This document shows, piece after piece, positions 4,205-8,725 of a stretch of 64,000 nt of DNA (positions are counted from its first letter, which is position 1; every line of letters begins with the position of its first letter). A model generated the notes under the pieces. The model saw only the letters and a program-made list of their open reading frames with translations, did no database searches and was not told the DNA's origin. This DNA is from Gluconobacter cadivus (GTDB lineage: Bacteria; Pseudomonadota; Alphaproteobacteria; Acetobacterales; Acetobacteraceae). A program made the position numbers and the translations under genes. The DNA is taken from the NCBI RefSeq assembly GCF_015244745.1, contig NZ_JABCQI010000002.1, positions 186,001 through 250,000 of the forward strand, read 5' to 3'.

Positions 4205-5689
4205 TCACGCGTCTGGACGCTCGCAAAAATCCCGCAGACGCGCGAGACCCTCTTCGAACCGCGCCCGTTCGATCTCTCCCTGCGTGCTGTCGCCCAGCCG
4301 CAGCAGCCAGGACGGGTGGGCAAGCGCCAGACGCTGGACGGCATTTTCGCCCTCCCCCGCCGTCCAGAGCGTTCCGCGCCGCTCCGCCATCGCCCTGCCC
4401 GGACCATCCAGCGCCTTCAATGCTGTAGCCCCCAGCGAAACAATAAGTTTAGGCCGAACCAGCGCGATTTCCTGTTCCAGCCAGGGGCGACAGCCCGCCA
4501 CATGCGCCTCATCCGGGCTCTGATGGATGCGGCGGCGCCCCTGAAGGCGGAAGCGGAAATGCTTGACCGCATTCGTCAGATACAGCGTGCGGCGATCGAC
4601 CCCGACCTTTTCCAGCGCCTCCTGCAATACCTGCCCCGCCGGACCGACAAAGGGACGTCCGGCCAGATCTTCCTGATCGCCCGGCTGTTCGCCGACGACC
4701 ATGATCCGCGCATTGATCGGCCCCTCCCCGACGACGGCCTGCGTGGCCGCACAGTGCAGCGGACAGGCGGTGCAGGTCCGAATTTTCGCCGCCAGATCTT
4801 CAGGCGTGTCCGAAAGAGGTTGGACGGGAAGATTGTCGCGGGAGCGCAGCCGGTCGTGAAAGATCGGAGCTGGCAGAGGCACCTGTTCGGCCATGGCCCG
4901 GACGCGCGCTTCAGCCCCGGCCACAAGCTGAGGGATCAGGCGCGTTTCGGGCAGGTTTTTCCAGTACCGGCCCGGCATCTCACGGCGCATGGCTTTCGTG
5001 CGGACGCGGGCCGGATTAAACGTAGAGGCATAATAAGTGTTCCACAGATCCCCGAACCCGTCATCCAGTTCCGGCTGTTCACAGGGTTCGGCAGAACAGG
5101 CCAGATCCTTCCCGTCCCAGCGGATGGAGCCGCGAGGGGTCAGGATCATCCAGTCCATGTCCGCAAAGCGCTTGGCAAAGAACGGGGCGACCCGTTCGAG
5201 AATATGATGCTGCGGCTCGAACCATGCGAGGAACCGTCGCCGTCCCGCCTCCCCGATCTGTGCGGGCAGTTCGCGAAAGCGGACGAAAGCCGTCATCTTG
5301 TGACAGTCCTGCCGGTTCTGCCGGATCATGATCCGCGCTTTTGCGATATCGACATCCGTCGCCACATCCAGCAGATGCGGATTGCCCTGAACGCGCCATG
5401 CGATCCGATAAGCGAGCGCGAACCGGCCGGGATCGGAATGACACAGCATGTCCCGCAGCAACGCGATGCAGGACGCGCGCAATGTCACGCTTTTCAGGAC
5501 GGGCCCCTCCGTCAGCGCCACCATGCCGTCGCTGTCATTGGTCTGTTGCCCGAACAGATCCGTCTCGCCGCCCCTGATCCGCCAGTCGAGTGCTTCAGGC
5601 GGAATCGCACGCTGCAAAGCCGCGCGCGCCATCTCCCGCCAGGGCTCGAATGCGGCACTGTCCTCAAGAGTCAGAACGTAGCGTGTCAC
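4205..5689 (-). CDS. DUF4130 / UdgX fusion: uracil-DNA binding repair protein
   Basis: 494 residues in two parts. Residues about 1-250 match the DUF4130/TIGR03915 DNA metabolism family (FFAKRFADMDWMILTPRGS, then FNPAR, then EMPGRYWKNLPET). Residues about 295-494 are a UdgX-type uracil-DNA glycosylase. They show CTACPLHC (Fe-S cysteines 306 and 309), motif GEQPGDQED at 333-341, the UdgX loop GRRRIH at 384-389 whose His389 aligns with the residue that bonds covalently to the DNA, and HPS at 458-460. UdgX proteins bind uracil in DNA irreversibly. The start overlaps the radical SAM stop by 4 bases. The operon carries a LexA-type box. Confidence 0.9.
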   Translation of the reverse strand: MTRYVLTLEDSAAFEPWREMARAALQRAIPPEALDWRIRGGETDLFGQQTNDSDGMVALTEGPVLKSVTLRASCIALLRDMLCHSDPGRFALAYRIAWRVQGNPHLLDVATDVDIAKARIMIRQNRQDCHKMTAFVRFRELPAQIGEAGRRRFLAWFEPQHHILERVAPFFAKRFADMDWMILTPRGSIRWDGKDLACSAEPCEQPELDDGFGDLWNTYYASTFNPARVRTKAMRREMPGRYWKNLPETRLIPQLVAGAEARVRAMAEQVPLPAPIFHDRLRSRDNLPVQPLSDTPEDLAAKIRTCTACPLHCAATQAVVGEGPINARIMVVGEQPGDQEDLAGRPFVGPAGQVLQEALEKVGVDRRTLYLTNAVKHFRFRLQGRRRIHQSPDEAHVAGCRPWLEQEIALVRPKLIVSLGATALKALDGPGRAMAERRGTLWTAGEGENAVQRLALAHPSWLLRLGDSTQGEIERARFEEGLARLRDFCERPDA

Positions 5690-6918
5690 AAAAGATTCAT
5701 CTGCTGGGGCGCGGGGCTGAACAGGCTGCGCAGATCATGCCGGTCCGTCAGCCGGGCAGGGCTCCAACCCGGCGTCTGCACAAAGGGCCGAACTTTGCGG
5801 ATGGACACGTTCAGCCGCGCCAGATCCTCCAGCCGCACCGCCTGATGCCGCCTCGCCCTGAGAATTGCGGCCACGGCTTTCATCCCCAGCCCCGGCACCC
5901 GCAGCAGCATTTCCTTCGGCGCGCGGTTCAGATCCAGCGGAAACAACGCCCGGTTATCCAGCGCCCAGGCCAGCTTGGGGTCCAGCTCCAGATCCAGCAT
6001 CCCGTCCGCACGCCCGGCCGTCAGTTCCCCGAAAGCAAATCCGTAGAACCGGAACAGCCAGTCCGCCTGATAGAGTCTGTGCTCGCGCTGAAGTGGCGGA
6101 CTTTTCGCGGGCAGTAGGGCGGATGCATCGGGGATGGGGCTGAAGGCAGAATAATAGACGCGCCTCAGCCCATAGGAGCCGTAGAGATTGGCGCTGCTAG
6201 CCAGAATATCCTGATCGGACGCCGCATCCGCCCCCACGATCATCTGCGTACTCTGCCCCCCCGGCGAAAACCGTTCGGCCCGGCGTCCAGTATGACTACG
6301 GTCCTTGCCCGCATCAATCTTCAGCCGCATCTCCCCCATCGCCTGCCGGATACCGCCCGCTTTTTTCTGCGGCGCATACTGCTCCAGCCCCGCCACGGTC
6401 GGCATTTCCACATTGATCGACAGCCGATCCGCATAGCGCCCCGCCTCTTCCAGCAGACGCGGCGACGCATCGGGAATGGTCTTGAGATGGATATAGCCTC
6501 GAAACCCGTGCTTTAGACGCAGGTCCCGCGCCACCTGCACAAGCTGCTCCATCGTGTGATCGGACGACCGGATAATGCCTGAAGACAGAAACAGCCCCTC
6601 AATGCAGTTGCGCCGATAGAACTCCAGCGTCAGCCACACGACTTCCTCGGGCGTAAAGCGGGCGCGCTCCACATTCGAGGACGACCGGTTGATGCAGTAG
6701 GCGCAGTCATAGACGCAGAAATTGGTCAGCAGGATCTTGAGCAGCGACACGCACCGCCCGTCCGGCGTATAGGCGTGACAGATTCCGTTCCCGGTCGTGG
6801 ACCCAAGCCCCCCGCTCTTTGCGGAGTCCCGGCGCGTCGAACCGCTCGACGCACAGGAGGCATCGTATTTCGCTGCATCGGAGAGAATCGCCAGTCTCTG
6901 GGAGAGTGTTTTCTTCAT
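5686..6918 (-). CDS. Putative DNA modification/repair radical SAM protein
   Basis: 410 residues. The radical SAM cysteines are C68, C72 and C75 (CVYDCAYC), followed by a typical barrel. Near the C-terminus (about 345-365) is a helix-hairpin-helix DNA-binding motif (VPGLGMKAVAAILRARR). This matches the family (TIGR03916) that travels with DUF4130 and UdgX proteins, here in the same operon. The reaction is not known for the family. The fused partner suggests handling of damaged or modified bases. The ATG at 6918 is only 6 bases from a perfect GTTC-N7-GTTC box, so the transcript start probably lies inside or next to the box. Confidence 0.87.
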   Translation of the reverse strand: MKKTLSQRLAILSDAAKYDASCASSGSTRRDSAKSGGLGSTTGNGICHAYTPDGRCVSLLKILLTNFCVYDCAYCINRSSSNVERARFTPEEVVWLTLEFYRRNCIEGLFLSSGIIRSSDHTMEQLVQVARDLRLKHGFRGYIHLKTIPDASPRLLEEAGRYADRLSINVEMPTVAGLEQYAPQKKAGGIRQAMGEMRLKIDAGKDRSHTGRRAERFSPGGQSTQMIVGADAASDQDILASSANLYGSYGLRRVYYSAFSPIPDASALLPAKSPPLQREHRLYQADWLFRFYGFAFGELTAGRADGMLDLELDPKLAWALDNRALFPLDLNRAPKEMLLRVPGLGMKAVAAILRARRHQAVRLEDLARLNVSIRKVRPFVQTPGWSPARLTDRHDLRSLFSPAPQQMNLL

Positions 6919-6923
6919 GTCAT

Positions 6924-6938
6924 GTTCTTATTTCGTTC
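6924..6938. promoter_or_regulatory. LexA (SOS) box of the radical SAM-UdgX operon
   Basis: GTTCTTATTTCGTTC is a perfect match to the alphaproteobacterial LexA direct-repeat site GTTC-N7-GTTC. It sits immediately upstream of the radical SAM start codon at 6918, where repressor would block transcription. The repair nature of the operon supports the call. Confidence 0.72.
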
Positions 6939-7015
6939 CAGATGACGGAACGCAAGAGAAACCGTGAAATTAACCTGTTGTTTCCCGGTTTTTCGTTATT
7001 TTTGAAGGACTTTTT

Positions 7016-7043
7016 TTAACGGAACCGATTCAGCTTCCGTTAA
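7016..7043. repeat. Perfect 9-bp inverted repeat upstream of flagellin
   Basis: Arms TTAACGGAA (7016-7024) and TTCCGTTAA (7035-7043) are separated by 10 bases, about 54 bases before the flagellin ATG. It could be an operator for a flagellar regulator, or a stem in the flagellin leader RNA that affects translation. A T-rich run precedes it (7011-7017). I find no clear sigma-28 or sigma-54 promoter in the gap. Confidence 0.5.
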
Positions 7044-7096
7044 CCACTCCCCCCTATCCTGAGGCCGCAAACCTGCACCGACGGAGAACCGATTCA

Positions 7097-8725
7097 ATGT
7101 CATTGTCCATCAATACGAACACCGCGGCAATGGCCGCACTCCAGAGCCTGAACCAGACGACGGCCGACCTGAACAAGACCGAAAACACGGTCTCCACCGG
7201 CAAGTCCGTCAACACGGCCTCTGATAATCCTGCGATGTACTCCATCGCCCAGAACATGACCGCCCAGATCTCGACCCTGTCGGGCGTCTCCACGGGCCTC
7301 CAGTTCTCCGCTCAGGTGCTGAACACGGCAACGACCGGCCTGTCGAGCATTTCGAGCGCTCTTCAGTCTCTTGCCACCACCATCGGCACGAACACGACAG
7401 GCGTCGACAACTCGACCCTGAACGATGCCATCACCAAGACGCTGGCCTCCATCGACTCTGCTGCTACGGGCGCAAAGTTTCAGGGCGTGAACCTGCTCTC
7501 CGGCCAGACCGGCAACGGCACGACCTATACGAGCCTGTCGACCGCCATGGACGCACAGGGCTCCACCTTCACGCAGAACGGCTTCAACGTGACGTCCGCC
7601 GGCCTCGGCCTGACGAACCTGAGCATGGACATGTCCGGCTCCTCGCTGGCGCTGGGTAGCAGCACTTCCAATACATTGACGAGTGACGGTACTACGCCGA
7701 CTTCCCAGAGCGTTCTTCAGCTGAAGAATGAAGCTGCTGCGGGAACGGGTGGCACGATCAGCGCGGCCAACCCCTCCGTGACTTATAACTTTGTTGCTGA
7801 CAGCAAGTCTACGACATCTGGCAGCACGACCACCACCGACAACCGCCAGACGACGGCTCTGGCCATGGTGGGTGCAGCTTTCAGCAAGGCTGCCGGTTCG
7901 GATCCGACCACCGACCCCGCCGTCACAGCTTCCTTCACGCTTGGTACGGATGGAAAATTGACGGCCACAACAGGCTCGGATGTTACAATTACCTCTCAGA
8001 CAACGGCATCGGACGGATCGATCACCTATTCCCTGTCCAACGGAGATAGCCTCGTCCAGTCCAAGGACGGCAATGGCAACTCCGTCTATACCGCCAATAC
8101 GGCATTTGATGCCAATGGCAATGTCACAGCCAAGACCGTTGTGACGGACGTCGACATGTCATCCGCATCCTCCCTCAGCGCCACGGGCGGCTCATCAAGC
8201 GCACAGAGCGTCAAGCAGGTCGATCTGCTGACCGATGCCATGGAGTATCAGGGCTTCGGCGTGTCCCGCGATTCCAGCAACAACCTGACAATCGCTGGTA
8301 ACTCCATCGATGCGACCAGCACAGAGCTCAGCGTGGTTGATGCAACTGGGGAGTTTGGACAATCGACGACGCCCCCTACGGAAGGCAAAACAGATCCTAC
8401 CACCGCAGCTGACACCAAGGCGAAAAAAGCAACAGCTGTCACCGGTGCAACCGTCGTCAGCGCCGTCGTTCAGGCTGCGATCTCCAGCGTAACGCGCACC
8501 GCGTCTTCGATCGGTTATTCCAGCACGACGATCTCCAACCTCCAGACCACGACGTCCAGCCTGTCCGACGCCCTGACGACGGGTGTTGGCGCGCTGACGG
8601 ACGCTGATCTGGCAGCCGAGAGCGCCAAGCTGACCTCGCTTCAGACGAAGCAGCAGCTCGCCGTTCAGTCACTGTCGATTGCGAACTCGCAGTCGTCCAC
8701 CCTGCTTAGCCTCTTCCGCGGCTGA
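7097..8725 (+). CDS. Flagellin, long form
   Basis: 542 residues, roughly twice the usual alphaproteobacterial length. The N-terminal D0/D1 part (about 1-180; [18 protein letters not shown], then [14 protein letters not shown]) and the C-terminal part (about 450-542; ending [16 protein letters not shown]) are conserved and form the filament core. Between them is a Ser/Thr/Gly/Asp-rich region of about 270 residues that should be surface exposed. I see no Cys or Trp. It is exported by the flagellar type III apparatus. FlaF follows downstream, and a strong hairpin lies just after the stop. The start has GGAG at 7083-7086. Confidence 0.93.

Follow-up and report, generated by a model that had tools for sequence, protein, structure and literature searches.

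A putative SOS-regulated radical SAM and DUF4130-UdgX operon in Gluconobacter and its relatives

Operon layout and conservation of the predicted LexA box

The stretch of DNA analysed here, 64,000 nucleotides from Gluconobacter cadivus (the window; the closest named relatives of the host are also Gluconobacter), carries on its minus strand an operon of two genes that is preceded by a predicted binding site for LexA, a LexA (SOS) box. The upstream gene (5686-6918, minus strand) encodes a protein of 410 amino acids in the family TIGR03916, the putative DNA modification/repair radical SAM proteins, and overlaps by four bases the downstream gene (4205-5689, minus strand; GTG start), whose 494-residue product joins a DUF4130 part to a UdgX part. 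As DUF4130 and UdgX are fused in one protein, the operon consists of two genes with three parts, rather than the trio described in the first-pass annotation, which had been made from the sequence alone. That annotation had also placed an exact GTTC-N7-GTTC site six bases before the radical SAM start, and proposed SOS control on this basis. The site is indeed present at 6924-6938 (minus strand; GAACGAAATAAGAAC in the orientation of the genes, GTTCTTATTTCGTTC on the plus strand), although the interval between it and the radical SAM ATG is five bases, 6919-6923. GTTC-N7-GTTC is named as the alphaproteobacterial LexA motif in the available text of a 2021 paper (PMC8565304).

Taken alone, the site in the window is not significant, whereas its conserved place before the radical SAM gene is. 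The window contains one match to GTTC-N7-GTTC against 1.66 expected, 85 of 100 shuffled windows have at least one, and the genome holds 123 (68 + 55), compared with 26 for the reversed pattern. Hence a lone site is uninformative, and the box could in principle be a chance match to a pattern that fixes no more than eight bases and occurs often in the genome; several of the 27 genomic sites that were inspected lie inside long open reading frames, as would suit this explanation.

The evidence against chance comes from the relatives, in which start codons were projected from the alignment and boxes were sought from -150 to +60 of the projected start. Of the 80 best-matching relatives, 78 carry an exact GTTC-N7-GTTC ahead of the radical SAM ortholog, whereas each of the other spacers from 0 to 15 bases was found at only 0-5 loci (0-4 in the narrower -150 to +60 window). 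These 80 named loci are the best of at least 594 confirmed stretches in a named genome collection, and therefore lean towards close relatives; from their titles, we take them to represent Acetobacteraceae, Rhizobiaceae, Rhodobacteraceae, Caulobacteraceae, Sphingomonadales and other genera. In a second set, restricted to Acetobacteraceae, the radical SAM gene was detected in 113 of 299 genomes at E<=1e-50, and leaving out three partial matches (G120, G146 and G178) gave 110 loci, including this genome's own (L113). The exact box was found at 88 of these: 85 of 107, with other spacings at 0-6, plus each of three loci (L194, L204 and L215) that lacked the N-terminal BLAST segment and were read separately. 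Within the radical SAM coding sequence (+200 to +1100), no N7 box was found at any of the 107 loci. The two sets overlap in kind, both including Gluconobacter, Asaia and Acetobacter by title or likeness, and the counts are of loci, rather than of events, as related genomes are not independent. Nevertheless, a box before the same gene in so many relatives is far beyond chance, and therefore more than a chance match, an explanation that is now scarcely credible. The first-pass annotation had suggested searching other Acetobacteraceae, and regarded a lack of conservation as evidence against its proposal; both sets instead contain the box at most loci.

The comparison was extended by searching 398 Pseudomonadota genomes with a profile, which detected the radical SAM gene in 84, of which 29 belong to other classes. 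None of these 29 loci has GTTC-N7-GTTC at the gene. Instead, 19 of the 29 have CTGT-N8-ACAG, which we take to be the E. coli-type LexA box, directly ahead of the gene, with other spacings at 0-1, and this second motif is absent from all 187 loci of the alphaproteobacterial sets. Since one type of box replaces the other outside the class, the simplest reading is that the predicted regulation itself has been kept across classes, beyond a mere DNA word. At three loci of one family (f46; L290, L302 and L313), there is no LexA-type box before the radical SAM start, where they share the inverted repeat TCTCAT-CCA-ATGAGA, possibly the site of another regulator.

The arrangement also varies within the class. 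Asaia and similar loci have the box reversed, at -39, such that its place and orientation are turned over while the predicted motif is kept. In the genus g18 (L186, L188, L189 and L205), the palindrome GAAC-N4-GTTC (GAGAACAAACGTTCT) is found just before the radical SAM start; it presumably resembles the Gram-positive LexA box, and lexA keeps an ordinary box in all three genomes of this genus in which it was found. At four loci of the genus g4 (L169, L193, L201 and L203), the DUF4130 match starts 0.7-1.9 kb past the radical SAM match, farther than at most loci.

Promoter anatomy and LexA in the host

The position of the box relative to the gene suggests how it might act. Among 166 sites, 151 are in the GAAC orientation and 15 in the GTTC orientation, and for the former the median position of the box's last base is 7 before the projected start (quartiles 6 and 15.5), with extremes of 46 positions ahead of that start and 4 beyond it. 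When 149 GAAC-oriented alphaproteobacterial boxes were aligned in gene orientation, the profile read GAAC-A-TATAAT-GAAC, in which the half-sites are fixed by selection and positions 6-11 have the frequencies T.81 A.89 T.64 A.48 A.49 T.62. An enrichment of TTG 18-16 bases ahead of the box (T.56 T.48 G.37) places a -35-like hexamer 17 bases from the TATAAT. Flanking positions mostly carry less than 0.2 bits, the exceptions being the TTG (up to 0.34 bits), the bases adjacent to the box (0.32 and 0.65) and small downstream bumps of up to 0.26. In the window, the corresponding elements would be a -10 hexamer AATAAG (6927-6932, minus strand), overlapping the box, and a -35 hexamer TTGCGT (6950-6955, minus strand), 17 bases before it and at about the place of the TTG enrichment. 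The LexA half-sites would therefore frame the -10 element, such that bound LexA would cover the promoter, and the operon's mRNA would be almost leaderless. A -10 element between the half-sites would also explain the orientation shared by 151 of the 166 boxes.

This anatomy bears on another explanation, in which LexA does bind the box, but in the service of the divergent flagellin gene starting at 7097 on the plus strand, and not of the operon. The two genes do share the intergenic stretch 6919-7096 in the window, and a flagellin match was found at 9 of 190 loci searched, including that of this genome. However, the box precedes the radical SAM gene also where no flagellin was found, GAAC-oriented boxes keep their short distance to the radical SAM start, and the box overlaps the likely promoter of the operon, making control of flagellin in place of the operon very improbable.

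LexA itself is encoded in this genome, with an exact box upstream of its gene, and by 26 of the 28 Acetobacteraceae tested, which were picked as 22 without and six with the exact operon box. Promoters could be read at 23 lexA loci (this genome and 22 others of the family), four of 27 being left out because the start motif was unmatched, and 18 of the 23 contain the exact box. Many lexA promoters (L223-L231, L233, L234, L236, L238, L239, L243, L247 and L248) also contain a second, variant site, GTTG-N7-GTTC, often reading GTTGCC...TTTGTTC and, in promoters that have the exact box, lying close to it. Elsewhere in the genome, 27 stretches around box-like sites were picked and ten neighbouring open reading frames scanned; three of the ten encode a UmuD-like S24 peptidase, a YdjM-like protein and the C-terminal part of a Y-family polymerase, all of which we assume to be SOS-linked. 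Exact boxes stand before the YdjM-like and S24 peptidase genes and near the polymerase part (L257, C5:46965; L262, C8:143747; L273, C11:67169).

Several observations weigh against SOS control of the operon. Firstly, 22 of the 110 Acetobacteraceae loci lack the exact box: 13 hold a version with one mismatch (0-7 at other spacings), some of these versions resembling the second site of the family's lexA promoters; four, all of the genus g18, have the GAAC-N4-GTTC palindrome; and five have no recognisable box. Two of the 80 best-matching loci (L037 and L038) are similarly limited to a site with one mismatch, at -44. Secondly, five of the 29 loci outside the class carry CTGT-N8-CCAG instead and five, among them the three f46 loci, have neither kind of box, the boxes in this group being recognised by their motif. 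Thirdly, a strict consensus promoter scan at the operon start found none, and the window's own -10 and -35 hexamers match the consensus poorly; hence the embedded promoter in this strain rests on the profile. Fourthly, seven of the ten proteins adjoining genomic boxes belong to other families or to none. Fifthly, the recA box of this strain is one base short, GAAC-N6-GAAC (L280, C1:619749). Across 19 genomes of the genus Gluconobacter, the recA box is N6 in seven (the others being L318, L320, L321, L324, L325 and L328), exactly N7 in 11 and absent in one, and in this strain recA may be under weaker control by LexA. Yet the conservation of the box in relatives, and a host LexA with a box of its own, support the SOS control originally proposed, and the operon is very probably a DNA repair operon repressed by LexA.

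The encoded proteins and the place of UdgX

All three parts score above the cut-offs of their families. The radical SAM protein scores 548.2 bits against TIGR03916 (cut-off 343.5), its CxxxCxxC cluster motif (C68, C72 and C75; 6694-6717, minus strand) is invariant in 34 of 34 aligned sequences, and a structure model of moderate confidence suggests a radical SAM barrel. In the second protein, residues 12-249 (4943-5656, minus strand) match the DUF4130 family TIGR03915 at 196.3 bits (cut-off 112.25), and residues 251-483 (4241-4939, minus strand) match the UdgX family TIGR03914 at 282.2 bits (cut-off 189.95). The 50 matches listed by a fold search were all of the uracil-DNA glycosylase (UDG) type. 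The UdgX part has 45% identity to the Mycobacterium smegmatis UdgX (8iil) in structural alignment, with a TM-score of 0.91 on the target, and contains a GEQPG motif at residues 333-337, in which Q335 is nearly invariant. Its RRRIH loop (residues 385-389; 4523-4537, minus strand), in which R387 and H389 are invariant in 54 of 54 sequences, is the counterpart of the KRRIH loop with H109 described for UdgX in the available text of PMC10359453; Arg replaces the first Lys, and the presumed cross-linking histidine, H389, aligns with H109. The DUF4130 part offers less to support a role in repair, as a single-sequence search retrieved no PDB sequence at E<=1, and a profile search against the PDB gave one match, at only E=1.

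UdgX appears to be a less constant member of the system than its two partners. Boxed loci with radical SAM and DUF4130 genes, but without detected UdgX, account for 8 of the 80 best-matching loci and 7 of the 107 Acetobacteraceae loci, absence being called by tblastn over the flanking sequence retrieved, and genome-wide for only eight Acetobacteraceae. These eight all lack an operon UdgX, seven having the box and one not; six have a UdgX above the cut-off elsewhere, whereas two have none above it genome-wide, one of which (G295) is 99% complete. Within Gluconobacter, three genomes bearing the operon hold two UdgX genes each, and four genomes without the operon have no UdgX above the cut-off. 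The second UdgX gene of the present genome (L283 832-2097; C4 near 170458) encodes 421 amino acids with an RRIH loop and, by sight, an N-terminal part like a degenerate DUF4130, and there is no exact LexA box in its locus. Because boxed loci occur without detected UdgX, its step would not be needed everywhere. Hence radical SAM and DUF4130 look like an SOS-controlled core to which UdgX is optional, and UdgX, as judged from gene content, is associated with the system without being essential.

These data also bear on whether the core might act without UdgX. The operon could be under SOS control, with the radical SAM and DUF4130 proteins directly reversing a base lesion, as SplB does for spore photoproduct, and UdgX a later and separate backup. 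The boxed operons without detected UdgX are what direct reversal would predict, as is the nearly complete G295, with no UdgX above the cut-off anywhere. However, most of the Acetobacteraceae without an operon UdgX have one elsewhere, the operon and UdgX co-occur in Gluconobacter (three of three with the operon, none of four without), and no spore photoproduct lyase family was found at E<=0.001 in scans of NCBIfam and Pfam. Direct reversal is consequently possible, although we are inclined to doubt it.

With the operon read instead as a LexA-repressed system in which UdgX takes part where present, a sequence of events can be proposed. LexA would repress the operon by covering the -10 element between the two GAAC half-sites. 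Upon damage, RecA would trigger LexA cleavage, and transcription would start only a few bases from the start codon, such that the radical SAM and DUF4130-UdgX proteins would be made together from a near-leaderless mRNA. The radical SAM enzyme, with DUF4130 as a DNA-handling partner, might then act by radical chemistry on a base that is damaged or wrong. Where it occurs, UdgX would remove uracil (or the product of this chemistry) and stay on the abasic site through its histidine, and the bound protein would keep the site uncut during the SOS response. A broader and more speculative history, which we put forward tentatively and consider rather unlikely, is that radical SAM and DUF4130 form an old SOS core of the Pseudomonadota, in which LexA control was rebuilt when the motif changed, with UdgX being added in many lineages, so that SOS-induced DNA-protein cross-linking would shield the lesion-derived abasic sites that the radical enzyme creates.

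Relation to known systems and biological meaning

The radical SAM family TIGR03916 presumably corresponds to COG4277. According to the 2021 paper, SOS control of an operon for UDG repair had already been reported in Verrucomicrobia and Alphaproteobacteria; its available text describes a COG1573-COG4277 operon under LexA in Verrucomicrobia, Alphaproteobacteria and Bacteroidetes as a putative base-excision repair system (PMC8565304). The control of such operons is therefore published, which the first-pass annotation did not mention. The Gluconobacter operon is similar in having two genes, a UDG-superfamily protein and predicted LexA control. Yet it differs from what that text covers, which concerns other LexA motifs, those of Bacteroidetes, in being a Gluconobacter member with GTTC-N7-GTTC, in the likely promoter element inside the box, and in the absence of UdgX from some operons. 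The additions made here are the breadth of the association, the exchange of motifs, the promoter anatomy and the optional nature of UdgX. The literature searched contained no work bringing together UdgX, LexA and "SOS response".

The encoded proteins likewise resemble, and depart from, better-characterised ones. As in the M. smegmatis UdgX (6ail, 8iil and others), there is a UDG fold with a cross-linking loop, but the M. smegmatis protein in the crystals consists of one UDG domain, of ~190-230 residues, whereas the present UdgX is joined to DUF4130 and encoded in a boxed operon with a radical SAM gene. With spore photoproduct lyase, the resemblance is that of a radical SAM protein with ties to DNA repair and SOS; the protein here matches TIGR03916, with no family of that lyase listed at E<=0.001. 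The SRAP proteins (HMCES/YedK) are covalent shields of abasic sites that are unrelated to UdgX in fold and chemistry, and hence only comparable in how they work, through covalent capture of abasic sites and a link to the SOS response. For UdgX, it has been proposed that it protects abasic sites, with the adducts resolved in a RecA-dependent manner (PMC10359453, in its available text).

UdgX serves genome-wide methods, yet the same text calls its physiological role "largely unknown" (PMC10359453). The box being kept in most relatives, and its E. coli-type counterpart outside the class, suggest that cells want this set of proteins during DNA damage. The occurrence of radical SAM and DUF4130 alone in some genomes means that these two and UdgX are separable. 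Hence the operon offers a concrete place in which to study the role of UdgX: cells of an acetic acid bacterium that is easy to grow, under SOS induction.

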